28,161 bases of DNA from an uncultured Lachnospira sp. Lineage in GTDB: Bacteria > Bacillota > Clostridia > Lachnospirales > Lachnospiraceae. Every line of letters starts with the position of its first letter. Position 1 is the first letter of the stretch. Under the pieces are notes generated by a model. That model was given only the letters and a program-made list of their open reading frames with translations. It had not been told where the DNA came from and did no database searches. The DNA is taken from positions 1 through 28,161 of the forward strand of contig CAKRKK010000007.1 in assembly GCA_934358235.1 (NCBI GenBank), read 5' to 3'. The position numbers and the translations under genes are program-made. Shown in pieces: positions 3,934-25,601 of the stretch.

Positions 3934-6171
3934 TTATTCTTCGAAGAATATTTTTGCTGCTGCTATCAGCAGGCTGCCATTACCAGGAAGATAAAGAGGA
4001 AGATCTTTTCTTGAATTCTGGCGGTTGTTTCCACTTACTACATATTCATTCTTTGGGGAATTAATAAGCAGTTGTTCAAGGGCAGTATCCTTCATTCCAA
4101 GTGTGTCTGCAGCCATAGCGATAACTGCAAAATCCCATCCCCATAGAGTGGAATAGTCCCATACATCAATAACTTTTTTAAGTGTTGCCCTGAAGGTGTC
4201 AGTATCTATTATATCTTTGGCACCATATCCTTTTAGCATGCCATAAACCTGAAGCATAAGTGGGTGGTCAATAGCTTTATTGGTAAAGGTTTCCTGACAG
4301 TTGGCGTGGGATAAGTATAAACCATTAGCAGCCGGCAGAGGAGCTATTCTGTCAGCTATATTATCCCACTTTTGCGATAGCATGGTCTGATTAAGCTTTA
4401 CAGCCCATTGAGCAGCAATCTTTAAACCATATCTGAAGTATGCAAGCTCGAATATAGGATTTCTTGTATCCTCAGGAAGATGTCTTTCCTGAACCGGGAT
4501 AACGGGTGCCTCTATATTAAAAGTATCTGTATTGATGTCATATACAAGATAATCTTCTATGAATTCTGCCGTTTCCTTAACTAGAATCCAGTATTTATTC
4601 ATATAAGCGCTTATATAGCTATCGTCTTTTTCTTTATAGCAGTCAAGTACCATCTGCAGCATATTGATTATGTGTGGCTGCTGCCATACAAGCAGGGGTG
4701 CTATCTTGGAAGGACAGTCACAGCCTGTATAGGATACCATTTTGGTCCAGCGCGCCCCCTTATAGCCATTTCGTGCTGCATTCCTTCTTGCCTCTGGAAG
4801 TATGCTTATATACCAGTCAAAGCTGCGTTCAAGAAGTTCAGGGTGTCCCCATAGCGGTGCCCACGCCATATGCCAGTAATGCATCTCAAGATGTGCTTTG
4901 CCATACCAGCTATTGCAGGTAAGACCAGTTTCAGCAGGAGGGATATATCCGCTGTCATTAATAATAAGCAGATATTGTGAGAGTATTACCCTTCGCATAA
5001 GCTCAGTATTGCTATGTGTAAGGAATCTGCCGCTGTTCCAGTAGTTATTCCAGAACTCATAACAATTACCAGCAATAATATTAAAGCTTTGTAAAGCATT
5101 AGCTTCATTGTAATAGTTTATGGAAGCATTATTATCTGTTGCTTTGGATAAGCTTTCTGGCTTGGGTATGTGGCAGTTGCTGTATATATTATCGTTATCA
5201 ATAAAGCTTATGCATAGATAAAGTGTATCAGCATCAGCAGCAATATTATATCTGTGGCTGCAGCCTTCCTTAAGAGTGCCATTGCTTTTTATGATAACAG
5301 AATAATGTGTGTTATCCAGAGTTCGTTTTATGTAGTATATATTATCAGTATTGTTATTGCTGTTATTATTGCCATCAGTATTGTTGCTGCTGTTATTATG
5401 ACCAACAGTATTACTGCGTGTGTTGATAGATGAAGTTATACAGCCAAGGCTGTCCTGATGCCAGTTATCGGCAGCCTTATCCCATAAGGAACCGGTTATA
5501 TCACTGGAAGCATAAGGAAAGTGTATAGCTATACCAAGTCCTTTAGTTAGAAGCTGCGAGCTTATCTTAAATGCCAGGGTGTCTGTTTTATTATCGCATA
5601 CAGTTTCTACATATACTTTATGTTTAAGGACCGGAGCTGTGTGCTTATCTGATATAGAGAATTCACTTTTTAAGGTTCCGGTTGCAAGCTCAAGCTCCTG
5701 ATTTATATCAGATATAATGTCTGATGAAACAGGCTCGTTATTAAGAGTGAAGCCTATTCTGGCAAGGTTGAACTTGTGTGGATTCATTCGTACCCAGTCA
5801 TAGGCAGCTTCATTTCCTTCATATTTAACGCGTGGATAGGATACTTTTCGTCCAAGATAATCGTATTCGGTCATCTTAACGTCATCAAGAGTATACTCAG
5901 TCTTAGAAGGCACAGCCTCTTTATCAGTACCAGCAGTACTTAAAGAAGCTTTGGTCTTAGGAGTGCTGTTCTTTGCAGCAGGGGTTGTATGCCAGCCCCA
6001 TTCAGCCATTGTACATAGAGGTGTTTCAGTAACATATTCATCATATAGAGTCTGCATACCGGTGATATCAGCGGTAAAACAGAATCTGCCATTACCAACA
6101 GATAGTGGTGATTGTGGATTTATTTCAGACAAATGTGGATTATATTCATTTATTACAGCAATATTAGTCAT
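3934..6171 (-). CDS. Six-hairpin glycoside hydrolase-like protein
   Basis: This 745-residue protein has the layout of (alpha/alpha)6 glycosidases of the GH65/GH95 kind. An N-terminal beta-sandwich-like part (residues 1-380) opens with SPLSVGNGRFCFTADITG. A helical part follows, with GARWTKM and CPSKIAPLLVWQQPH (about 470-500), like the equivalent loop of those families. There is no signal peptide or membrane segment, so it should act in the cytoplasm on imported oligosaccharides. The exact substrate and GH family are not clear; alpha-L-fucosidase or rhamnosidase-like activities are possible. An Asn/Ser/Thr-rich insertion (about 248-277, built of NNTDGNN-like units) interrupts the N-terminal domain. 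Start: GGAG lies 10 bases before the ATG. No transporter or sugar regulator is adjacent. Confidence 0.75.
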   Translation of the reverse strand: MTNIAVINEYNPHLSEINPQSPLSVGNGRFCFTADITGMQTLYDEYVTETPLCTMAEWGWHTTPAAKNSTPKTKASLSTAGTDKEAVPSKTEYTLDDVKMTEYDYLGRKVSYPRVKYEGNEAAYDWVRMNPHKFNLARIGFTLNNEPVSSDIISDINQELELATGTLKSEFSISDKHTAPVLKHKVYVETVCDNKTDTLAFKISSQLLTKGLGIAIHFPYASSDITGSLWDKAADNWHQDSLGCITSSINTRSNTVGHNNSSNNTDGNNNSNNNTDNIYYIKRTLDNTHYSVIIKSNGTLKEGCSHRYNIAADADTLYLCISFIDNDNIYSNCHIPKPESLSKATDNNASINYYNEANALQSFNIIAGNCYEFWNNYWNSGRFLTHSNTELMRRVILSQYLLIINDSGYIPPAETGLTCNSWYGKAHLEMHYWHMAWAPLWGHPELLERSFDWYISILPEARRNAARNGYKGARWTKMVSYTGCDCPSKIAPLLVWQQPHIINMLQMVLDCYKEKDDSYISAYMNKYWILVKETAEFIEDYLVYDINTDTFNIEAPVIPVQERHLPEDTRNPIFELAYFRYGLKIAAQWAVKLNQTMLSQKWDNIADRIAPLPAANGLYLSHANCQETFTNKAIDHPLMLQVYGMLKGYGAKDIIDTDTFRATLKKVIDVWDYSTLWGWDFAVIAMAADTLGMKDTALEQLLINSPKNEYVVSGNNRQNSRKDLPLYLPGNGSLLIAAAKIFFEE
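3935..3955 (+). terminator. Candidate terminator inside the convergent gene end
   Basis: A perfect 16-base palindrome (stem TATTCT/AGAATA, loop TCGA) at 3935-3950 is followed by TTTTT. It begins a few bases after the diguanylate cyclase stop and overlaps the last codons of the minus-strand gene. The stem is only 6 bp and AT-rich, so termination may be weak. Confidence 0.4.
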
Positions 6172-6364: not shown

Positions 6365-7141
6365 TTGAGTGATAAGACAAAAATAATTGCAGTTGCTGGT
6401 AAAGGTGGAGTTGGTAAAACCTCGCTTGCAGGAGTTATAGTAAAGCTTCTGGTGGAAAGCTACCCAGATAAAAAGATACTAGCAATAGATGCAGATCCAG
6501 CAGTAGGTTTATCAACAGTACTTAATGTTGAAGTAGAGAAAACTATAGATGATATAAGAAAAGAAGTTATTAAAAATGTAGAGGATGGCGATACAAAGTC
6601 AGCAGTAGAACTGCTTGGAGAGGCAAAGTATGAGATAATAGATGCCTTAAAGGAACAGGATGGGTATGCATTTATAGCGATAGGAAGACCAGAAAGTGCA
6701 GGCTGCTACTGTAGGATTAACTCATATCTAAAAGAGGTAATAACTATGTTGTCTGACCAGTTTGACTATGTTGTTATAGATGGTGAAGCAGGTATTGAAC
6801 AGATAAACAGACGCGTGATGGAAAAGGTTACACATCTTTTACTAGTTACTGATGCAAGCAGGAAGGGCAGCCAGGTTGTAAAGACTATTAAGAAGGTCGC
6901 AGATGAGCTTGTTATGTATGATAAGCTGGGCGTAATAGCTAACAGACTGCCTGATAAGGAGGTTGTTGGGCTTATGGATATAGGTGATATGCAGCTCCTT
7001 TCTGCTATCGAAAGTGATGATATGCTTGCAAGGGCAGATGTTCTTGGAGAGAATGTAACTAAGCTTCCTGATGATACAAGAATAGTTAAAGGAGCAAAAG
7101 AGGCACTTGTAAATATAGGCATCTTACCTGATGCAGAATAA
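6365..7141 (+). CDS. CooC-type nickel/metal-insertion ATPase
   Basis: This 258-residue SIMIBI ATPase has a deviant Walker A (GKGGVGKT, residues 12-19, with the signature lysine), the IDADP motif at 41-45 and a conserved DGEAG switch. It also has the GCYC motif (C114 and C116), matching the Cys-X-Cys that binds metal at the dimer interface of CooC, the factor that helps mature the nickel site of CO dehydrogenase (AcsF does so for acetyl-CoA synthase). No CO dehydrogenase is in the window. The start is TTG with a perfect AGGAGG at 6351-6356, 8 bases upstream. It heads a six-gene co-directional run, 59 bases before the next gene. I infer it serves a metal centre of a protein in this run. MinD-like roles are less likely because of the CXC motif and the context. 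Confidence 0.85.
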   Translation: MSDKTKIIAVAGKGGVGKTSLAGVIVKLLVESYPDKKILAIDADPAVGLSTVLNVEVEKTIDDIRKEVIKNVEDGDTKSAVELLGEAKYEIIDALKEQDGYAFIAIGRPESAGCYCRINSYLKEVITMLSDQFDYVVIDGEAGIEQINRRVMEKVTHLLLVTDASRKGSQVVKTIKKVADELVMYDKLGVIANRLPDKEVVGLMDIGDMQLLSAIESDDMLARADVLGENVTKLPDDTRIVKGAKEALVNIGILPDAE

Positions 7142-7200
7142 AAATAACGTTTATATGAGCAGACAGATGAAAAAGGCTGAGGCATAGGAAAGGGATTAAC

Positions 7201-8391
7201 TTGAAGGATTTACAACATTTATATTATTTTGAAAAGCTTCTTGAGGAGGTTAATAATGACCTTGTAAGAAAAGCCCAGGAGAAGGGAGATATAGCCATAG
7301 GGGCGGTATGCTTCCAGATTCCTGAACCATTGCTTAATCTTCCGGGATGTTTTTCAGTAAGGCTAAGGGCACCAAGAACAGGCTCCCTGGAAATGGGCAC
7401 ATATTATATGAGCAGTATGCTGTGTGAAGGCTGCAGGGCTATATTAGAGCGTGCCATAGAGGGCGGGTATAATTTTCTTGATTGTATTATTGCACCTGAT
7501 GCGTGTGCACAGATGAACAGATGTGTAGAAAATATTGAAAGACAGGGGCTGTGTACGAAGGAGAAGTTCTTTGTGGAGTATTCGGATGTTCCGATGAAGT
7601 CAGATGAATCGGCTTTAAGACATTATGTTAAACAGATGAAGCTTCACGTTCTAGAGCCATTACATAATACATATGGAATAGACATATCGGATAATGCACT
7701 TAGGGAGGCTGTAGAACAGCAGAATGAGATAAGCAGGCTGATAAGTGAGATTGGCGATTACAGAAAAGAAGATAATCCAAGAATAACAGGATATGAATTC
7801 GCTGTATTGTGTCTGGCTACTTATTGCTGTCCTAAGGAATATTTATTAGATAAGCTAAGGGATACAGCACAGGAATTAAAGACAAGAGAACCAGATGCAA
7901 AGAAGAGTTACAGGGCAAGAGTTGCTCTTATAGGCTCAGAAATAGATAATCCAGAGCTTATAAAGCTTGCAGAGGAGGCAGGCGCACTTGTTGTAGCTGA
8001 CAGATTCTGCTTTGGTTCGCTGCCTGGGCGAAGTGAGCTTATCCTTAATGAAAACGAGGATGTTCTATATCAGATATGCAGGCAGTATATGAAGTGGGGA
8101 AAGTGCCCAAGATATATGAATACAGAAAAGATAAAAGAACGTGAGGAGTATGTAGATTATATAGCCAGGGAATATAAGGCAGAGGGACTTATATATCAAC
8201 AGATAAAGTTCTGTGATTACTGGGGATATGAAAGAGCATCTGCATTTCATGTTATGAGAAAAGAGTATGGATATCCGGTACTTTCAATAGACAGACCATA
8301 TGCAGTAGGTTCATCAGGACAGATAAGAACAAGAATCCAGGCATTTGTGGAAAGCCTGGAGGTAAAGAAGATAAACAGGAATAACCAGTAA
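7201..8391 (+). CDS. 2-hydroxyacyl-CoA dehydratase/double-cubane family protein, smaller subunit
   Basis: This 396-residue protein has the usual length and hallmarks of the HgdB/FldC/BcrC/double-cubane family. Candidate Fe-S ligands include C75 and C78 (MLCEGC), C102 (APDACAQ), C269-less context VVADRFCFGS (C270), and C338 in LIYQQIKFCDYW. The C-terminal GQIRTRIQAFVESL matches the family ending. Members either dehydrate 2-hydroxyacyl-CoA, reduce aromatic-CoA, or carry an [8Fe-9S] double-cubane cluster that reduces small molecules; all need an ATP-driven activase, and one lies two genes downstream. The start is TTG, with AGGAAAGGGA at 7186-7195. Sequence alone does not decide whether the substrate is a CoA ester; no CoA transferase or acyl-CoA dehydrogenase is nearby, which speaks against a classical fermentative dehydratase. 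Confidence 0.85.
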   Translation: MKDLQHLYYFEKLLEEVNNDLVRKAQEKGDIAIGAVCFQIPEPLLNLPGCFSVRLRAPRTGSLEMGTYYMSSMLCEGCRAILERAIEGGYNFLDCIIAPDACAQMNRCVENIERQGLCTKEKFFVEYSDVPMKSDESALRHYVKQMKLHVLEPLHNTYGIDISDNALREAVEQQNEISRLISEIGDYRKEDNPRITGYEFAVLCLATYCCPKEYLLDKLRDTAQELKTREPDAKKSYRARVALIGSEIDNPELIKLAEEAGALVVADRFCFGSLPGRSELILNENEDVLYQICRQYMKWGKCPRYMNTEKIKEREEYVDYIAREYKAEGLIYQQIKFCDYWGYERASAFHVMRKEYGYPVLSIDRPYAVGSSGQIRTRIQAFVESLEVKKINRNNQ

Positions 8392-8430
8392 TAAACAATC
8401 AGACTATAAAGATAAGATGGAGAAATATAT

Positions 8431-9969
8431 ATGTCAAGTAAGCTTGGAAGTGAACCACTTGGTAAGTTTTATACGGGCAGAAAGCCTAAGAAAAGACGTG
8501 AGTGGCGTGGAATAAAAGATACCTGGTACGATTATGTAAGATGGCTGGGTTACTGGAAAACATTAATAACATTTATAGTAAAACCCAATAATATGAAGGG
8601 ATTCTTTAGATACCGCTGGATGATGAATTATCTCGCATTGCCGGATTTTATGGACAGACATACAGAGGGAATGCGTGGGTTACAGCTCCGTATGGCGCAT
8701 AATGCACTTGGCCTTATAGTAACTGATATATGCGGCATGCTAGGACAGATATTTAAAGCAGATCCTGCAATAGGTAACGATAAAGAGCTCAATAAAAAAA
8801 TAGTTCTGTTTGATGAAAATATGATGAGTACGCTTATGGGAGGATTTCCTAATCTTGTGTGGTTATCCGTAGAGGTGCCAGCAGTGTATACAAGCTCAAT
8901 GATGTCACAGACAGGAGTAAGCTATTATGTGGATGTAACACATGAGTATGGTGTGCCATCAGATGTGTGCCCGATGCCGGCAGCGGAGCTTGGAGTTGCG
9001 CTTGCAGATGATTTTCCACTCATTGGCTGTTGTGCGGTACAGTGCAATACAACCTGTGATGGAAGTCTTATGGGCAATGGTATTGAGGCAAGAAGCTTTA
9101 AGATACCGACCTTCCAGCTTGCTGTACCGATAAGACACAGACAGGAGAGTGTTCAGGAGTATGCAGCAGAGGAGGTACTTAACGCAATACACTTTATAGA
9201 GGAGCAGACAGGAGAAAAGTTTGACTGGGATGCATTCTTTAAGAGTATGGAAAGATTTAATGCAGAAACAGAGGAATTCCTGGAATGGATGGAAATATCC
9301 AAGACAGATTATCCACAGGTTATGGGTGTTACACTTGCACTTTACAGATATGGTGTATATCAGGCAGCAGGAGGAAGAAATCAGGCATTTCTTGATATGG
9401 ATAAGAAGCTCACAGCAATGGCGATGGAGGGCTATGAAAAGAAGCAGCTTGCAGCAAAGGAATATCGCCATCGTGCTATGACCTGGGGTGTTCAGGCAGC
9501 ATATTATACAGCACTTCCAATATGGCTGCTTAACTGCTGGGGTGTTGTAACCATAACAGATATGTTAAGTATGGTATCGACAGAAAAGGTTGACACACAG
9601 GATAAGCATCAGGCTATGTTAGATCTTGCATATCTTTATGAGAACATGATAATGAGAAACCGTTCTAATGGTGGCTATGAAACAGGTGTGGAGGCACTCT
9701 GGAGATTCTGTGAGATGTTCAGGATAGATATAGTTATTATGTATGTTCATATGGGCTGTAAGTCAATGTCTGGGTATCATGGCTTGTTTGAGGAAGAAGC
9801 AAGAAAGCACGGAGTTCATCTTATATGGGTAACACACAATCTGATGTGCCCGGAGGATGGCAGCAGAAGAGATATGAGAACAGAAATAAACAGATATATG
9901 AGAACGGTGTTCGCAGAAGAACCATTGGATCCTAGTCTTGAGGATTTTGATGATAAGGAATGCTGGTAA
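8431..9969 (+). CDS. 2-hydroxyacyl-CoA dehydratase family protein, larger divergent subunit
   Basis: This 512-residue partner is longer than the usual 400-480 residues of HgdA/BcrB-type subunits and is more divergent. The family is recognised from the overall pattern and from the C-terminal block IDIVIMYVHMGCKSMSGYH followed by an ITH-like strand. It has a cysteine-rich stretch in the middle: C179 (SDVCPMP), C200, C201, C205 and C209 (GCCAVQCNTTC), a likely cluster-binding region. The N-terminal 60 residues are basic and aromatic and not typical of the family. It sits 39 bases after the smaller subunit and 9 bases before the activase, so the three are almost surely co-translated and form one enzyme. 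GGAG lies 11 bases before the ATG. Confidence 0.75.
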   Translation: MSSKLGSEPLGKFYTGRKPKKRREWRGIKDTWYDYVRWLGYWKTLITFIVKPNNMKGFFRYRWMMNYLALPDFMDRHTEGMRGLQLRMAHNALGLIVTDICGMLGQIFKADPAIGNDKELNKKIVLFDENMMSTLMGGFPNLVWLSVEVPAVYTSSMMSQTGVSYYVDVTHEYGVPSDVCPMPAAELGVALADDFPLIGCCAVQCNTTCDGSLMGNGIEARSFKIPTFQLAVPIRHRQESVQEYAAEEVLNAIHFIEEQTGEKFDWDAFFKSMERFNAETEEFLEWMEISKTDYPQVMGVTLALYRYGVYQAAGGRNQAFLDMDKKLTAMAMEGYEKKQLAAKEYRHRAMTWGVQAAYYTALPIWLLNCWGVVTITDMLSMVSTEKVDTQDKHQAMLDLAYLYENMIMRNRSNGGYETGVEALWRFCEMFRIDIVIMYVHMGCKSMSGYHGLFEEEARKHGVHLIWVTHNLMCPEDGSRRDMRTEINRYMRTVFAEEPLDPSLEDFDDKECW

Positions 9970-9978
9970 GGAGGATAT

Positions 9979-10776
9979 ATGAGTAAGTTTTATGGTGGCT
10001 GTGATGCAGGAAGCACCTATACAAAGTGTGTCATATTAGATGAGAATGGGAAAATGGCTGCGGCTGTTACCAAAAAGAGCAGGATAAATCCAGTACTTAG
10101 TGCTAAAGAAGCACTTGCTGCGGCGGTAAGCCAGGTTGATGGAATCAATAGTGCAGAAGAGCTGGAATATCTTGTAGGAACAGGATATGGACGTAACAAG
10201 GTTCCATTTGCACAGGAGAATATATCAGAGATAAGCTGTCATGCCATGGGAGTACATATAACAGATCCTTCTGTTAAGGCAATTATAGATATAGGTGGAC
10301 AGGATGTTAAGGGTATAGCAATAGATACGGATGGAACAGTACTTAATTTCGCTATGAACGATAAGTGCGCGGCAGGCACAGGAAGATTCTTTGAGTCCAT
10401 GGCAAGGGCTTTTGAAATGAGTCTTGACGAATTCTCAAGACTATCGTTGTCGGCAAAGAATGTTATTCCAATAACTGCCCAATGCGCGGTATTCGCAGAA
10501 AGTGAAGTTATATCACTTGTAGGTGAGGGAAAGCCTATGGATGAGATAGCAGCAGGTATAGAATTATCTGTTGCAAAGCGATGCTTTGTTATGGCAAAGA
10601 AAGCAGGCGTTGTTGATTCTGTTACACTTACGGGAGGCTGTGCTAAGAACGAAGGTCTTAAGCAGGCTATTGAGAAGGTGCTTAAGGTAAAGGTAGTAGA
10701 GCTTGCAGTAGATCCACAGCTTATGGGAGCACTTGGAGCTGCTGAATATGCAAGAATACATTCGCTTAAGGCCTGA
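9979..10776 (+). CDS. ATP-dependent activase of the dehydratase family (BadF/HgdC type)
   Basis: This 265-residue ASKHA ATPase is the length of HgdC/CompA. It has the phosphate-binding loop GGCDAGSTYTK (6-16), the IDIGGQDVKG motif (104-112) and TLTGGCAKN near 217-223. C130 (NDKCAAGTG) and C169 (TAQCAVFAESE) are the two cysteines that in HgdC bridge a single [4Fe-4S] cluster between the monomers of a homodimer. The family uses ATP hydrolysis to push one low-potential electron into the partner enzyme. A perfect AAGGAGG overlaps the stop of the preceding gene, giving tight coupling. Its natural partners are the two subunits directly upstream. Confidence 0.93.
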   Translation: MSKFYGGCDAGSTYTKCVILDENGKMAAAVTKKSRINPVLSAKEALAAAVSQVDGINSAEELEYLVGTGYGRNKVPFAQENISEISCHAMGVHITDPSVKAIIDIGGQDVKGIAIDTDGTVLNFAMNDKCAAGTGRFFESMARAFEMSLDEFSRLSLSAKNVIPITAQCAVFAESEVISLVGEGKPMDEIAAGIELSVAKRCFVMAKKAGVVDSVTLTGGCAKNEGLKQAIEKVLKVKVVELAVDPQLMGALGAAEYARIHSLKA

Positions 10777-10839
10777 TATGGATACACAATATCAGATAAT
10801 AAGCTCACATAAACAATAAAAGAAAGAGAGTAATTAACA

Positions 10840-11013
10840 GTGATTATACTAAAAATAATTGGAATAGCAGCTATTGTATTAATAGTATTATTTCTGCTTT
10901 CTCTTATTATATATTTCTTTAATCTTGACATGAAGTTTGCTGCCAGTCTGATAAAGCCGTTGACTGCGTATTATAACTGGTCAAGGGACAGACGCAATAA
11001 AAGAAAGCAATAG
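10840..11013 (+). CDS. 57-residue single-span membrane protein
   Basis: A small gene starting with GTG at 10840 encodes about 25 strongly hydrophobic residues (IILKIIGIAAIVLIVLFLLS and onwards), then a short amphipathic stretch (DMKFAASLIKPLTAYYNW) and a very basic C-terminus (SRDRRNKRKQ). The positive-inside rule puts the C-terminus in the cytoplasm. AGAGAG lies about 10 bases before the start. It lies between the activase (63 bases upstream) and the acetyl-CoA-synthase-like gene (23 bases downstream), on the same strand, so it belongs to the run. It may tether the soluble complex to the membrane; this is inference. The family is unknown to me. Confidence 0.7.
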   Translation: MIILKIIGIAAIVLIVLFLLSLIIYFFNLDMKFAASLIKPLTAYYNWSRDRRNKRKQ

Positions 11014-11036
11014 CAGGTGACAGAGGAACCGGATAT

Positions 11037-11792
11037 ATGAAGGATAAGCTGACAGATAACAATATAAATATATATGATGAAGAGATTGCTGCTATAAAAG
11101 AGTATATCAGGCAGTACGGACAGGAAGGCATAAAACAACTGCCCACAGATAAGCATTGGGAGGTTACCAGTAAGGAAAGCCTTGTGTTAAGAAATGAAAT
11201 GGCATATGAGCTTGGTGGGAAAACACTTCCTGCTGTTGGCCTTACGGCGTGTACAACTACGAAGGGGTGTGTTGACAAGGATGGAATATATCTTATCGGC
11301 TCAGATCTTCCTGATATATCAAAGGACACAGCTTATGCAAGAATTACATTTATAAGGCTTAAGGAGTGTGTGGCAGCTAGCAGCCCGCAGGAGCTCTATG
11401 GCATATTAAGAGCAGTAGATTATGTAAGATATCATAACTATCCTAAGGGGTATATGACAAGAATATCAGCCATTAAAGAAAGAGAGCCGGTCAGAGTGGC
11501 TAAAGAAGCATTAGCAGAGGGCATGACCTTTTCACATATTGGTTCAGAGCTGATAAGGGCATATAAGCAGCGTAAAGAAGTAGCTGCGGTACAGATATAT
11601 TTTATTACAGATGAGAATGCTGATTATGAGAAGCTAAAAAGCAGGGCAGAAAGAATAGAACAGATAACAGATTCCCTGAATCATATATTTAATGGTCTTA
11701 TTATGGATTGCTCAACCTGTGGCAGCAGGGAATTGTGTGATGAAATAGATGGTTTAAGACAACTGCATCATAATATGGCAGAAACAGAATAA
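11037..11792 (+). CDS. Stand-alone acetyl-CoA synthase (CdhC/AcsB) middle-domain-like protein
   Basis: The 251 residues follow the order of the region before the A-cluster in acetyl-CoA synthase/CdhC: ELGGKTLPAVGLT (58-70; family ELGGP.. pattern), GIYLIGSDLPDI (83-94; family VIGPDIDEI), PVRVAKEALAEGMTFSHIG (151-169; family IWIRISKKAxxKGLKLKHIG) and VAAVQIYFITDENADYEKL (182-200; family VDKVQVTFITDPDEVEKL). Acetyl-CoA synthase then has CxxCQSFAPxHxC, which starts the A-cluster. Here the protein reads C225-x2-C228-x5-C234 and ends 17 residues later, so most A-cluster ligands and the whole C-terminal domain are missing. It therefore cannot be a normal acetyl-CoA synthase. It is the last gene of the run that opens with a CooC-type ATPase. 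AGAGGA lies about 9 bases before the ATG. Function unknown. Confidence 0.75.
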   Translation: MKDKLTDNNINIYDEEIAAIKEYIRQYGQEGIKQLPTDKHWEVTSKESLVLRNEMAYELGGKTLPAVGLTACTTTKGCVDKDGIYLIGSDLPDISKDTAYARITFIRLKECVAASSPQELYGILRAVDYVRYHNYPKGYMTRISAIKEREPVRVAKEALAEGMTFSHIGSELIRAYKQRKEVAAVQIYFITDENADYEKLKSRAERIEQITDSLNHIFNGLIMDCSTCGSRELCDEIDGLRQLHHNMAETE

Positions 11793-11797
11793 TAATA

Positions 11798-11838
11798 GGG
11801 CAGCACTAACAAGGAAGGTTAATGCTGCCTGTTTTTTT
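11798..11838 (+). terminator. Strong intrinsic terminator of the six-gene run
   Basis: A 13-bp stem with one wobble/mismatch (GGGCAGCACTAAC at 11798-11810 with GTTAATGCTGCCT at 11818-11830) and a 7-base loop is followed by T7 at 11832-11838. It marks the end of the plus-strand transcription unit. It also overlaps the 3' end of the convergent minus-strand gene. Confidence 0.9.
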
Positions 11839-18463: not shown

Positions 18464-18556
18464 GAAAACAATAATGCATATATATTGCTGAGAGTGAAAT
18501 GTAATTCAGACACTCAGGCATATTCTAAAAAAAATAACAGTAAGAGGAAAATATTA

Positions 18557-19363
18557 ATGAATGATAAGGTATGTAATAAAGTATATAGTAGGGAACAATT
18601 AACAGCACAGCTTAAGGATATGGGGTTAACAGGAGAAGAAACAATACTTATCCATTCATCCATGAAGGCAATCGGGGAAGTTGATGGCAGGGCAGATACA
18701 GTACTGGATGTATGGATGGATTATTTTAAGGATGGATTATTGCTGCTTCCAACACATACCTGGAAGACAGTTAATTCAGATAATCCAGTATATAATCCAG
18801 CAAAGACTCCATCGTGCGTGGGGATATTAACGAACCTGTTTATGAAAAGAGAGGGCGTTATACGTTCACTTCATCCAACACATAGTATGGCAGGGTATGG
18901 AAGGAAGGCTTCGGAATATCTTAAGGGTGAAGAATATAATAATACACCTTGTACGCCGGGAGGCTGTTATGACAGACTTAAGGATGTAGGTGGAAAGGTA
19001 CTGCTGGTAGGAGTAGGACATGAAAGAAATACATATATACATAGTATAGAGGAGGTGCTTAATGTTCCTAACAGATTATCAGATATGCCTATGAAGTTAA
19101 GAATAGAGCGTTCAGACAATGAAGCAGGGACAACAGTATATGTAAGAAAGCACTATAATGCACAGCAGCCGCATATATCAGAGGATTTTGTGAAGCTTAA
19201 CCAGATATTCATAGAGCAGGGAGTTGTTAAAAAGGTAAAGTTTGGTGCTGCTGACAGTCTGTTATGTGATGCGAAGGGAATGTTTGAGGTTGTCAGACAC
19301 GTTATTGCAGCCGATCCTCAGTGTATAGTAACAAAGGATAAGCTGTATTATAGCCAGCCATAA
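18557..19363 (+). CDS. AAC(3)-family aminoglycoside N-acetyltransferase-like protein
   Basis: A 268-residue cytoplasmic enzyme of the AAC(3)/YokD family, which transfers acetyl from acetyl-CoA to an amine. Family blocks are IHSSMKAIGEVDG, LLLPTHTW, VIRSLHPTHSMAGYG and TPCTPGGCYDRL, followed by GKVLLVGVG with TYIHSIEE. Start: AGAGGA (18543-18548) precedes the ATG at 18557; an open frame back to a TTG at 18485 has no ribosome-binding site. Related proteins are common chromosomal genes in gut Clostridia, and many do not give resistance, so it should not be read as a resistance gene without tests. It is flanked by no mobile element. It is transcribed alone from its own promoter. Confidence 0.85.
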   Translation: MNDKVCNKVYSREQLTAQLKDMGLTGEETILIHSSMKAIGEVDGRADTVLDVWMDYFKDGLLLLPTHTWKTVNSDNPVYNPAKTPSCVGILTNLFMKREGVIRSLHPTHSMAGYGRKASEYLKGEEYNNTPCTPGGCYDRLKDVGGKVLLVGVGHERNTYIHSIEEVLNVPNRLSDMPMKLRIERSDNEAGTTVYVRKHYNAQQPHISEDFVKLNQIFIEQGVVKKVKFGAADSLLCDAKGMFEVVRHVIAADPQCIVTKDKLYYSQP

Positions 19364-20211: not shown

Positions 20212-21675
20212 TTATGCAAATGGAAAATCGTCGAATTCGTCATAAGGAAATGGAAATTCGTCAAATTCAGCATTATCATTTTCGTTATCATTATCATAGC
20301 AAGGTTTATCATCAGGCTTTGCTGACTTTATGGCAGCCGCTTCTGCCGCCTCGCGCATTTGTTTCTGTTTTCTGTGTTCTTCGTTAAGAGCAGTTAATTC
20401 ATCATATACAGGGCTTAGTGATATGTCGAATTTATCGGCTATTTGGGCAGATTTTCCACGTTCAAACAATAAGACCTTATCAAGTGGCAGATTAGCAATG
20501 CTTACAGGCATTTTGTTTGATTTAAGGCTGATTTGTTCAATAGTATCAATATCCTGTCCACCAAGGTATAACCAGTGGTCACAGTTGTTAATGATAGTTT
20601 TTGCACAGGGTGCTGAGTATAAAGCTTCGAGCTGTGACAGACTTTGCAGTATAATACTAACGTATATATCACGGGATCTTATTACTGATATGATTTTATC
20701 AAAGTCAGCTATAGTTGTGCCAGCGGCGAAATCATCCAGAATAAGCCTTACAGGTATCTGAAGATGATTCTTTTCGTTCATATCGGCGATAGTCATAAGT
20801 GAGTGCAGCGCCTGTGCGTAGAATAATGATACGAGAACGTCAGATGAACGGTCAGAGTCACTAACATTGAGGAAAAGTACGCTTTTTTCACTTGAAAGCT
20901 TTTCAAATGAAATGCGTTCGGGAGCATTATACAGGTTATTAGCTGCACTATTATCAAGTGGAGTAAGCTTTTCAAATATAACTGAAATTATGCTCGAACG
21001 CATCTTCTCAGCAGAACCAGTAGCTTTAAGTACATTGTAGTATTTAATTGCCAGAGAGTTTTCATTTTCAATAGAAAGCTCTGAAAGCATGTATTCGTAT
21101 TCATCAAAATGACCGGCTAATTTGGCAAGAGCTGCTATGTTTCGCTGGTCTTTAGGGAAGCATTCCATAACATATGCAATCATAGAGGCGATTATATATT
21201 TGGCAGAAATATCCCAGAATATATCCTTTGTGTTGTGTATAGGGGCTAGCTGTTCAGCCATACATAGCACATCGCGTTCACTATAGTTACCATTGATATC
21301 AATATCAATATTATCAAATGGATTATAGCCAACTGTTGAGTGGCTGATACCAGAAAAGTCTATATTGTATACAGCAATTCCCTGCTGCTTTAGATATGGC
21401 TGAAGAAACCTTCTTAATGAATTCTTGGTATCAGTAACTATCAGGCTTTCGTTGCCAGATAATATGTTAGGCATAACATAGCCTCTGGTCTTACCTGCAC
21501 CAGCAGGTCCGATAATTAGGTCATTGTTGTTAAGCTGGGTATTATGTGTGTTATTGTCAACATATATATTTTTGGCAAGTAATCTTGCATTTTCGAAAGC
21601 CATATTAGCTGTGTTAGCTGATGAAGTGTTAGTTGATGTAGTGTTAAGTGATGTTGTATTAATTGCTGTGTTCAT
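20212..21675 (-). CDS. Orphan VirD4/TraG-like ATPase without membrane anchor
   Basis: A 487-residue P-loop ATPase of the VirD4/TraG coupling-protein family. Walker A is GPAGAGKT (56-63) within NDLIIGPAGAGKTRGYVMPN. The SLIVTDTKNS segment follows (77-86), then Walker B (PVRLILDDFAAGT), and the late conserved ISVIRSRDIYVSIILQSLSQLEALY and NCDHWLYLGG (about 370-395) of the family. Coupling proteins normally start with two membrane helices; here the N-terminus is a Thr/Asn-rich low-complexity stretch (1-24) and no membrane segment exists. The C-terminus is acidic and aromatic with a repeated EFDxFPF. GGAGG lies 7 bases before the ATG. No relaxase, VirB4 or pilus gene is in the window. It is the last gene of a minus-strand set with a ClpP-like protease. 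Confidence 0.88.
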   Translation of the reverse strand: MNTAINTTSLNTTSTNTSSANTANMAFENARLLAKNIYVDNNTHNTQLNNNDLIIGPAGAGKTRGYVMPNILSGNESLIVTDTKNSLRRFLQPYLKQQGIAVYNIDFSGISHSTVGYNPFDNIDIDINGNYSERDVLCMAEQLAPIHNTKDIFWDISAKYIIASMIAYVMECFPKDQRNIAALAKLAGHFDEYEYMLSELSIENENSLAIKYYNVLKATGSAEKMRSSIISVIFEKLTPLDNSAANNLYNAPERISFEKLSSEKSVLFLNVSDSDRSSDVLVSLFYAQALHSLMTIADMNEKNHLQIPVRLILDDFAAGTTIADFDKIISVIRSRDIYVSIILQSLSQLEALYSAPCAKTIINNCDHWLYLGGQDIDTIEQISLKSNKMPVSIANLPLDKVLLFERGKSAQIADKFDISLSPVYDELTALNEEHRKQKQMREAAEAAAIKSAKPDDKPCYDNDNENDNAEFDEFPFPYDEFDDFPFA

Positions 21676-21748
21676 AAGAGTACCTCCGGATATTGTTAAT
21701 GGTATAAAATATTGTTGATGATATAAAAATGTTGGTAATAATATAAAA

Positions 21749-22348
21749 TCATAGTGAGCTTATTATCTCATCTGCAAGACCAAATTCGATAGCTTCGCTG
21801 GCAGTAAAATATGTATCCTTAGAAGTCTTTTCATAGACCTCTTCTAAGGTTTTGCCGGTGTGCTTTGATATGATGCTGCCAAGGATTTCCCTGGTTTTCA
21901 TAATATCGTTGGAATGCTGCATTATAGTGAGGGCTGGACCTGTGATACTGCCAGCAGCCAGCGGATCGTGTATCATTACTCTGGAATGGGGCAGCATGCG
22001 TCTTGTATCTGCACTCATAAACAGAATAGAACCCATGCTGGCAGCTATGCCGCAGCATACGGTTGTAATAGGGCAGGATATTGCCTGCATAACATCATAT
22101 AGTGCAAGTCCTGAGTCAACCTCCCCACCGGGGCTGTTGATATACATAGTTATGGGAGCATCAGGATTCTCCTTTTCAAGATGAAGAAGCTGTATAATAA
22201 GTGAGTTAACGGTCTGTCTGTTTATTTCAGATACGCATAGTACCTCACGTCTGCTAAGCATTTCGTCCTGAATGCTGAATGGACAAAGTCCGTTGCTTGT
22301 TTCTCTTAATATAGCAGGTGTAATTATAGTATTTGTTGTATTTTCCAT
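21749..22348 (-). CDS. ClpP-like serine protease (extra, divergent ClpP)
   Basis: 199 residues, the normal ClpP length. The catalytic triad looks intact: S104 (GIAASMGS), H127 (SRVMIHDP) and D178 (TSKDTYFTA). MYINSPGGEVDSG (68-80) is the family oxyanion-loop block. The Ser-His spacing is two residues shorter than in E. coli ClpP. The N-terminal 25 residues differ from housekeeping ClpP, and tig/clpX are absent, so this is probably a second, specialised ClpP that needs an AAA+ partner for folded proteins. AGAAAGGA lies 9 bases before the ATG. It is 73 bases upstream of the VirD4-like gene on the same strand and 129 bases downstream of the unknown 313-residue gene, which suggests co-expression. 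Confidence 0.92.
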   Translation of the reverse strand: MENTTNTIITPAILRETSNGLCPFSIQDEMLSRREVLCVSEINRQTVNSLIIQLLHLEKENPDAPITMYINSPGGEVDSGLALYDVMQAISCPITTVCCGIAASMGSILFMSADTRRMLPHSRVMIHDPLAAGSITGPALTIMQHSNDIMKTREILGSIISKHTGKTLEEVYEKTSKDTYFTASEAIEFGLADEIISSL

Positions 22349-24402: not shown

Positions 24403-24611
24403 TTTCTGTGTAGCAGTTATTTATTACAAGAGTATCCATAAGAAAAATTGCATAATTAAGTAAAATTTTATTAAAAATAACCATGTAAAATGTTATGATA
24501 AGAAATAAGGATAAAAGAGTGTATGTATTTTGTTAAAATACAACATATATCAGCCGGAAATTTAAATTATCAAAACATAACGGTGAATTTTAAAGAAATG
24601 GGGTGCTTATT

Positions 24612-25601
24612 ATGTGTACAGCAGCAACTTACAAAACAAAAGATTTCTATATTGGAAGAACACTTGATTATGAGTTTTCTTATGGTGAGGAGATAACCAT
24701 AACACCAAGAAATTATGAGTTTAAATTCAGGCACGCAGAAAAACTTACATCACATTATGCGATTATTGGAATGGCCTTTGTGGCAGGTGGATATCCGCTT
24801 TATTACGATGCAGTCAATGAAAAGGGTGTCGGTATGGCAGGACTTAACTTTGTGGGAAATGCGGCATATGCCAATCCGGTACTAGGAGATGAAACAGATG
24901 TAGTACAGGTTGCACAGTTTGAATTCATACCATGGATTCTTAGCCAATGTGAATCTGTAATGGAAGCAAGAACTAAGTTGTCAGGAATGAGACTTACGAA
25001 TACAGCGTTCAGTGAGCAGCTTCCAGCAGCACAGCTTCATTGGATAATCGCAGACAAGGATGAATGTATAGTTGTTGAGTCAATGAAGGATGGATTGCAT
25101 ATATATGATAATCCAGTAGGTGTACTTACGAATAATCCACCATTTCCAATGCAGATGTTTGAGCTAAACAATTATGCGGGAGTATCAAGAAAACAGCCTG
25201 AAGGTACATTTGCAGGAGTACTTAAGCTTGATGCATACAGCAGAGGTATGGGTGGAATGGGAATTCCGGGTGACCTTTCAAGCCAGTCAAGATTCGTTAA
25301 GGTGGCATTTACGAAGCTTAATTCTGTATCAGGAAGCAGCGAAATGGAGAGTGTGAGCCAGTTCTTCCATATATTAGGCTCAGTAGACCAGCAAAGAGGC
25401 TGCTGTGAGGTTAAGGATGGAAAGTATGAGATAACCATATACACCTCTTGCTGCAACGCGGCTAAGGGAATATATTACTATACAACCTATGATAACCATC
25501 AGATTACAGCGGTAGATATGCATAAGGAGAACCTGGATGCAGCACAGCTTATAAGATATCCGGTTATAACTTCAGGAGAAGTAAGATGGCAGAATAAGTA
25601 A
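24612..25601 (+). CDS. Choloylglycine hydrolase family enzyme (bile salt hydrolase/penicillin V acylase)
   Basis: An Ntn-hydrolase of 329 residues. The start must be the ATG at 24612, because removal of Met exposes C2 (MCTAATYKTKDF) as nucleophile; a GTG three codons upstream would destroy this. All family active-site residues are present: C2, R16, D19, N79 (MAGLNF), N174 (VLTNNPPF) and R227 (GDLSSQSRFVK). GMGGMGIPGDLSSQSR matches the Gram-positive bile-salt-hydrolase branch. The enzyme would free bile acids from glycine or taurine, or cleave related amides such as N-acyl homoserine lactones or penicillin V. No signal peptide, so it is cytoplasmic. A GGGGTG ribosome-binding site lies 6 bases upstream. 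Two stop codons in tandem (TAA TAG) end it, followed in the same frame by a gene relic. Confidence 0.92.
   Translation: MCTAATYKTKDFYIGRTLDYEFSYGEEITITPRNYEFKFRHAEKLTSHYAIIGMAFVAGGYPLYYDAVNEKGVGMAGLNFVGNAAYANPVLGDETDVVQVAQFEFIPWILSQCESVMEARTKLSGMRLTNTAFSEQLPAAQLHWIIADKDECIVVESMKDGLHIYDNPVGVLTNNPPFPMQMFELNNYAGVSRKQPEGTFAGVLKLDAYSRGMGGMGIPGDLSSQSRFVKVAFTKLNSVSGSSEMESVSQFFHILGSVDQQRGCCEVKDGKYEITIYTSCCNAAKGIYYYTTYDNHQITAVDMHKENLDAAQLIRYPVITSGEVRWQNK

Follow-up and report, generated by a model that had tools for sequence, protein, structure and literature searches.

In class I benzoyl-CoA reductases (BCRs) of the Bzd/Mbd type (BzdNOPQ, MbdONPQ), the clusters of BzdNO have been assigned separate roles in storage and catalysis, and the published work gives Cys36/73/100/263/293/327 as the [8Fe-9S] ligands of BzdN and Cys95/128/380 as the ligands of the catalytic [4Fe-4S] cluster of BzdO (PMC11971306). 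A locus with a comparable core has been found on a 28,161-nucleotide stretch, here called the window, from an uncultured Lachnospira sp. (assembly GCA_934358235.1, contig CAKRKK010000007.1), where six genes between positions 6365 and 11,792 encode a CooC-type ATPase, the subunits HgdB and HgdA, an activase (Act), a 57-residue membrane protein (TM57) and a CdhC-like protein derived from acetyl-CoA synthase (ACS), here called the ACS-core protein. HgdB corresponds to BzdN and HgdA to BzdO, and an activase ATPase accompanies them; the locus differs in having one activase gene, not two, in the ∼110-residue extension and the C201/C205 pair of its HgdA, and in the added genes for CooC, TM57 and the ACS core. 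With (R)-2-hydroxyisocaproyl-CoA dehydratase (HadBC) and its activator, the locus shares the HgdA fold and the activase, whereas its HgdB keeps all six double-cubane ligands and accessory genes are present. With DCCP/DCCP-R it shares the superfamily, the [8Fe-9S] ligand set in HgdB and an ATP-dependent partner, whereas DCCP is a homodimer and the locus has two unlike subunits. We consider it probable, though far from assured, that the six genes specify one ATP-driven, very-low-potential reductase of the superfamily that comprises BCRs, 2-hydroxyacyl-CoA dehydratases (HADs) and double-cubane proteins.

Part of the evidence for this interpretation lies in the ligand positions of the two HGD-D subunits. 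Throughout, conservation counts, synteny and the HgdA tree exclude rows shorter than 80% of the window protein or containing X or a stop; alignment A1 is built on 27 of the 120 homologues listed, A2 on 29/57 and A3 on 31/60, each with the window added, and A4 on 21 of 33 full-length loci rows. HgdB (7201..8391, + strand; 396 amino acids, TTG start; Pfam HGD-D, 1.5e-87) is the predicted double-cubane [8Fe-9S] subunit. When a profile of 30 HgdB rows has been aligned to BzdN, HadC, DCCP and MbdN, C37/C75/C102/C270/C302/C338 have fallen on C36/73/100/263/293/327 of BzdN, and the six cysteines are invariant in the 30 rows and at least 99% conserved in 58. HgdB thus holds the full ligand set of a double-cubane cluster, the cluster itself being predicted.

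HgdA (8431..9969, + strand; 512 amino acids, 59.1 kDa; HGD-D, 4.8e-40) is the predicted catalytic subunit with a single [4Fe-4S] cluster. Its C180, C209 and C443, invariant in 62 rows, have been matched to C95, C128 and C380 of BzdO, C180 directly, C443 via MbdO, and C209 by a common T-x-C motif, the printed alignment being one residue off at this point; the three cysteine ligands of the catalytic cluster of class I BCRs are accordingly present. Two extra cysteines, C205 (62/62) and C201 (61/62), complete a C-x3-C-x3-C motif. In a Foldseek search with the AF2 model of HgdA (pLDDT 81), all 20 rows at E ≤ 0.001 belong to the HAD/BCR/DCCP superfamily, with HadB as the best row (5e-13). Since a double-cubane set in HgdB together with a three-cysteine set in HgdA is the arrangement of BzdNO, the pair supports a reductase. 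The N-terminal extension of HgdA is helical, with many aromatic and basic side chains (17 W/F/Y, 20 K/R and 9 D/E in 115 residues), which is suggestive of membrane contact; no hydrophobic span has been found in it. The nearest HgdA relatives are those of L002 (recorded as 'Lactobacillus rogosae', 94% identity), followed by L003, L007 and L004. A 690-residue protein, P0121, contains an HgdA-like region (52% identity over 85%) and is possibly a fusion.

The activase (9979..10776, + strand; 265 amino acids) matches BcrAD_BadFG at 2.1e-56 and TIGR00241 with 214 bits (cut-off 125), has MbdQ, the HAD activator, HgdC and DCCP-R as nearest structures, and keeps both cluster cysteines, C130 and C169, each at least 99% conserved in 73 rows. 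HGD-D subunits combined with a BcrAD_BadFG activase place the locus in the BCR/HAD/DCCP superfamily. TM57 (10840..11013, + strand; GTG start) has no Pfam family above cut-off; its single hydrophobic span (hydropathy peak 3.4) is kept in 74/74 aligned rows, and F27, N28, L29, D30 and K32 form a conserved FNLDxK motif. The CooC-type protein (6365..7141, + strand; 258 amino acids, TTG start) carries the Walker A motif GKGGVGKT and matches AAA_31 at 4.5e-12, with ArsA_ATPase and CbiA weaker. Among solved structures, CooC1 comes closest (3kje and three other entries, 2.2e-14), and the CYCR motif aligns with it; C114, Y115 and C116 are each at least 99% conserved in 60 rows, so that a P-loop ATPase with a CXC metal site is indeed present. 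P-loop, CXC and sequence are shared with CooC1 of CO dehydrogenase (CODH), but no CODH gene has been recognised beside the CooC gene.

The last gene (11037..11792, + strand; 251 amino acids) matches the CdhC profile with 37.4 bits (cut-off 24) and has the fold of ACS domain 2, to which a short tail, C225-x2-C228-x5-C234-x9-H244, is attached. Within it, C225-x8-C234-x9-H244 is spaced like C488-x8-C497-x9-C507 of a genomic ACS, with His at the last position; the counterpart of ACS C485 is missing at its place, and C228 stands instead three residues after C225. Because it consists of domain 2 and a Cys3-His tail only, lacking domain 1 and the Ni-binding Cys-Gly-Cys that is present in the genomic ACS L105, the protein is not an ACS. 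The label "acetyl-CoA-synthase-like" given in the original prediction is therefore not upheld as it stands; the wider picture, in which a CooC-type ATPase and a protein descended from ACS belong to the reductase unit, is supported. As a natural ACS domain 2 devoid of the nickel site, the protein is useful for asking how the A-cluster arose.

The six genes are co-directional, with gaps of 59, 39, 9, 63 and 23 bases, and are followed by an intrinsic terminator (11797..11838, + strand; a hairpin, then seven T), whose stem at ∼11798-11830 folds with −17 kcal/mol (z −3.65, equalled in 0/200 shuffles); a simple terminator scan has flagged the same hairpin on the − strand only. This agrees with the single unit of gaps between 9 and 63 bases that had been described beforehand, as do the assignments of five of the six genes (AAA_31, HGD-D twice, BcrAD_BadFG and CdhC), among them the CooC-type ATPase with Walker A and CXC, the two HgdB/HgdA-family subunits, the activase with both cysteines and the CdhC match of the last gene, and likewise the 57-residue membrane protein. 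No CODH has been recognised among the 16 window ORFs scanned with Pfam, six of them those of the locus.

By its own terms, the original prediction would have been refuted by a gene order confined to this strain or by a last gene without a CdhC profile hit; the last gene does give the hit, and the set extends far beyond one strain. For the CdhC-like protein, 151 homologues reach E ≤ 0.001, of which 120 are listed, and the species-genome scan has confirmed at least 513 places, the best 80 of which are used for the locus counts. Most of their records bear the name Lachnospiraceae or that of one of its genera; the few outliers are Treponemataceae L012, Clostridium gasigenes L036 and Anaerovoracaceae L029 and L066. 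All six genes stand in order on one strand in 51 of the 59 loci with at least 6 kb upstream (median gaps 41, −1, 66, 11 and −1). In the exceptions, TM57 (L018), activase and TM57 (L066), CooC and HgdB (L052) or CooC, HgdB and HgdA (L073) have not been found, or HgdBA is missing between CooC and activase (L020, L021, L028, L039). HgdA occurs in 10/120 family genomes (9/119 without the centre genome), for which completeness is not given, and among 398 phylum genomes in the centre genome only; the distribution suggests an accessory trait with one family at its centre. Of the 71 rows in the HgdA tree, 28 form a window-type clade (support 89/98), beside which stands a sister clade of 41 rows (100/100).

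The unit is also modular. The operons without HgdBA (L020, L021, L028, L039, L073) retain CooC-Act-TM57-CdhC, L073 having no CooC within the examined flank, and in 5/5 cases a lone HgdBA pair is located elsewhere in the genome. Catalytic pair and engine therefore go together even when unlinked, and the remaining genes would act as an engine serving exchangeable HgdBA heads. Lone window-type pairs occur elsewhere in Pseudobutyrivibrio genomes and in B. fibrisolvens 16/4 (L089-L093); the HgdA of the lone pairs L089-L093, L094 and L095 is 66-74% identical to that of the window. A 435-residue ORF separates HgdB and HgdA in L089, and HgdB is split in L093. In L053 and L093 of Butyrivibrio fibrisolvens 16/4, HgdA, the IsrA-like gene described below and the second HgdB are each broken by a change of frame, which may come from errors in the draft sequence. 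L090:10319-16058 has MetK, NifH/D/K-like and MTA/SAH-nucleosidase-like genes beside its lone pair, a group which we take to be reminiscent of methylthio-alkane reductase clusters. The Candidatus Crickella genome of L066 has a second, divergent unit (L097:133-5810 and L098) with a 601-residue HgdA (38% identity), no TM57 found, and further HgdA/HgdB pieces.

In the sister clade the unit is joined, beyond what can be seen in the window itself, by nickel-chaperone partners, HypA and HypB, and a flavoprotein. A flavoprotein of ∼930 residues, Cys-rich in its N-terminal portion and of GltD/Nfn type in its other half, is encoded downstream of the unit. Of the 64 loci whose downstream flank reaches 3.2 kb or more, 35 carry it; in 30 loci it is the next gene after CdhC, no more than 600 bases away. 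The same Cys-rich/GltD-type layout has been described for the putative isoprene reductase IsrA (PMC10134865), to which the flavoprotein appears akin by layout and neighbours. HypA lies just downstream of the IsrA-like gene in 23/80 loci and HypB just upstream of CooC in 9/80; family models have confirmed one of each, the others having been called by similarity to such rows. Four nine-gene loci (L013, L017, L043, L061) read HypB-CooC-HgdB-HgdA-Act-TM57-CdhC-IsrA-HypA, and HypA follows CdhC directly, without IsrA between, in L021 and L041. The IsrA-like gene is near in 29/41 sister-clade rows; among the 11 operon rows without it, six have less than 3.2 kb downstream and five (L015, L022, L038, L069, L071) have no linked copy in the examined flank, while L036 is IsrA-linked and outside the clade. 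For the window's clade, an unlinked IsrA-like gene with HypA-like neighbours occurs in the genomes of L002 and L003 (L101, L104). Full-length IsrA is present in 7/10 HgdA-positive and 17/110 HgdA-negative family genomes (Fisher p 4.6e-4; 6/9 and p 0.0016 without the centre genome). The isr operon of Acetobacterium wieringae (IsrA, two HypA, HypB and ferredoxin; five genes) resembles sister-clade units in its flavoprotein and HypA/HypB, but lacks CooC, HgdBA, an activase and an ACS core; IsrA, HypA, HypB and ferredoxin are not found together here, the window having no IsrA-sized ORF. Subunit genes resembling 2-oxoacid:ferredoxin oxidoreductase flank L057, L058, L074 and L080 (upstream of CooC) and L095:15064-17300, gamma-like in five loci, delta- and alpha-like in four; they are possibly an electron source, or only shared synteny of close relatives.

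For the cluster types, the electron path, the membrane location and the metal served by CooC, we infer the following scheme. The activase would use ATP to push electrons from its [4Fe-4S] cluster into HgdB, whose double-cubane [8Fe-9S] cluster would store them, and the water-accessible [4Fe-4S] cluster of HgdA would reduce the substrate. The HgdA extension and TM57 would put the complex at the membrane, CooC may insert or stabilise metal in one Fe-S site, and the ACS-core protein, which probably has an Fe-S centre bound by Cys and His, may dock a CoA-like or redox partner and pass electrons on, serving as electron entry. In the sister clade, the donor or companion would be an IsrA-like NAD(P)H/FAD flavoprotein, with HypA and HypB as its maturation proteins. 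The ATP-driven low-potential reductase proposed originally is upheld by the conserved double-cubane, [4Fe-4S] and activase-cluster positions, and the extra metal centre proposed with it is plausible. Our leading guess for the substrate is an unactivated C=C bond in a hydrophobic molecule. Several points weigh against this reductase. HgdB reaches 139.4 bits with the NCBI double-cubane reductase model NF040772, below the curated 350-bit cut-off; the bzd/bcr models TIGR03190, TIGR03191 and TIGR02263 also score under their cut-offs, and the acid/base catalytic His131 of BzdO is replaced in HgdA by Gly211 or Ser212, as read from the alignment. No ferredoxin recurring directly beside the unit has been recognised among ORFs of at least 90 residues in families present in at least four loci. 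We know of no role for CooC or an ACS core in BCR or HAD systems. The IsrA enrichment ignores phylogeny, with genome completeness not given and seven candidates scored per genome, and the interpretation as a whole is built from sequence, model and gene-context evidence.

The strongest rival, which we consider unlikely, has the unit as an ATP-driven machine that would assemble a nickel enzyme or activate it reductively, the IsrA-like flavoprotein being the first candidate, with HypA/HypB bringing Ni, CooC inserting it, and HgdBA-Act and the ACS core reducing the Ni-Fe-S site to its working state. The positions of HypB upstream of CooC and of HypA after IsrA, or straight after CdhC in L021 and L041, are in its favour, as is the likening of the Cys6 cluster V of IsrA to the ACS A-cluster, and its proposal as a Ni site (PMC10134865). 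However, IsrA with its N-terminal part is present in 16/30 unit-bearing genomes and absent from 14/30, a set picked mostly for having no linked IsrA and counted without the G031 match, which covers the GltD half only; full-length IsrA also occurs without HgdA in 17/120 family genomes. Moreover, the neighbourhood network of 988 IsrA homologues gives, for neighbours above 20% co-occurrence only, HypA, HypB, TetR and DUF5692, and no HGD-D (PMC10134865). The ACS-derived domain and CooC could alternatively indicate a CO/Wood-Ljungdahl (CODH/ACS-related) function, which is very improbable: the ACS-core protein has no Ni-binding Cys-Gly-Cys, and a full ACS, found in 1/10 HgdA-bearing and 13/110 other family genomes, is not associated with HgdA, CODH having not been searched for in relatives.

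A 2-hydroxyacyl-CoA dehydratase acting on a CoA ester, with net dehydration and ATP needed only catalytically, would fit HadB as the top Foldseek row for HgdA and the resemblance of the activase to the HAD activator and HgdC. We regard it as quite improbable, since it leaves CooC and the ACS core unexplained and since HgdB keeps its six double-cubane ligands, whereas a [4Fe-5S] remnant is found in the second subunit of HADs (PMC11971306); in addition, visual inspection of the recurrent neighbour families has revealed no CoA-transferase, no family search having been made. Another improbable reading is that the unit and IsrA together reduce conjugated polyunsaturated fatty acids, turning rumenate into vaccenate, in rumen bacteria of the Pseudobutyrivibrio type, given that the unit occurs in Pseudobutyrivibrio ruminis, P. 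xylanivorans and B. fibrisolvens 16/4, and CdhC in Pseudobutyrivibrio sp. JW11 (P0087), and that it has membrane features. For the window's own clade we know of no rumenate-reducing phenotype, which counts against it. The Pseudobutyrivibrio-type group takes linoleate to vaccenate (PMC4478896) and IsrA homologues are proposed to reduce conjugated C=C bonds (PMC10134865), but a rumenate reductase sequence has already been reported (Fukuda 2007, as cited in PMC4478896) and the NADH:rumenate stoichiometry is cited as 1:1 (PMC4478896).

Returning to the ATP-driven reductase, no paper on a CooC + HGD-D + CdhC system has been found in the open-licence literature, subscription papers lying mostly outside the search, and the conserved six-gene set may be an undescribed metabolic machine. 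To our knowledge, ATP-driven double-cubane reduction and CooC/ACS nickel chemistry do not work together in any described system; the unit would join them in a stable operon found in Lachnospiraceae of the gut and rumen, and its genes are candidates for anaerobic reductions not yet assigned to genes, e.g., of double bonds. It is a rather doubtful further step to see here a new class of nickel-linked, ATP-driven reductases, in which a BCR-type double-cubane engine is combined with a module derived from CooC/ACS and, for the larger of the clades, with a Ni-containing IsrA-type ene-reductase. If true, ATP-powered electrons would be delivered to a Ni-Fe-S site, or would activate it, and this site would saturate unactivated (conjugated) double bonds of gut and rumen substrates such as polyunsaturated fatty acids or isoprenoids.

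Beside the unit, a 745-residue ORF without a Pfam match at 1e-5 (3934-6171, − strand) diverges from CooC. A choloylglycine hydrolase family ORF (PF02275, 339 bits) lies at 24603-25601 (+ strand), in a neighbourhood shared by the near relatives L002, L003 and L007. A conjugative coupling-protein-like ORF (20212-22348, − strand) and a ClpP-like ORF (18485-19363, + strand) are suggestive of a mobile element, and an aminoglycoside 3-N-acetyltransferase-family ORF (PF02522) is located near them.

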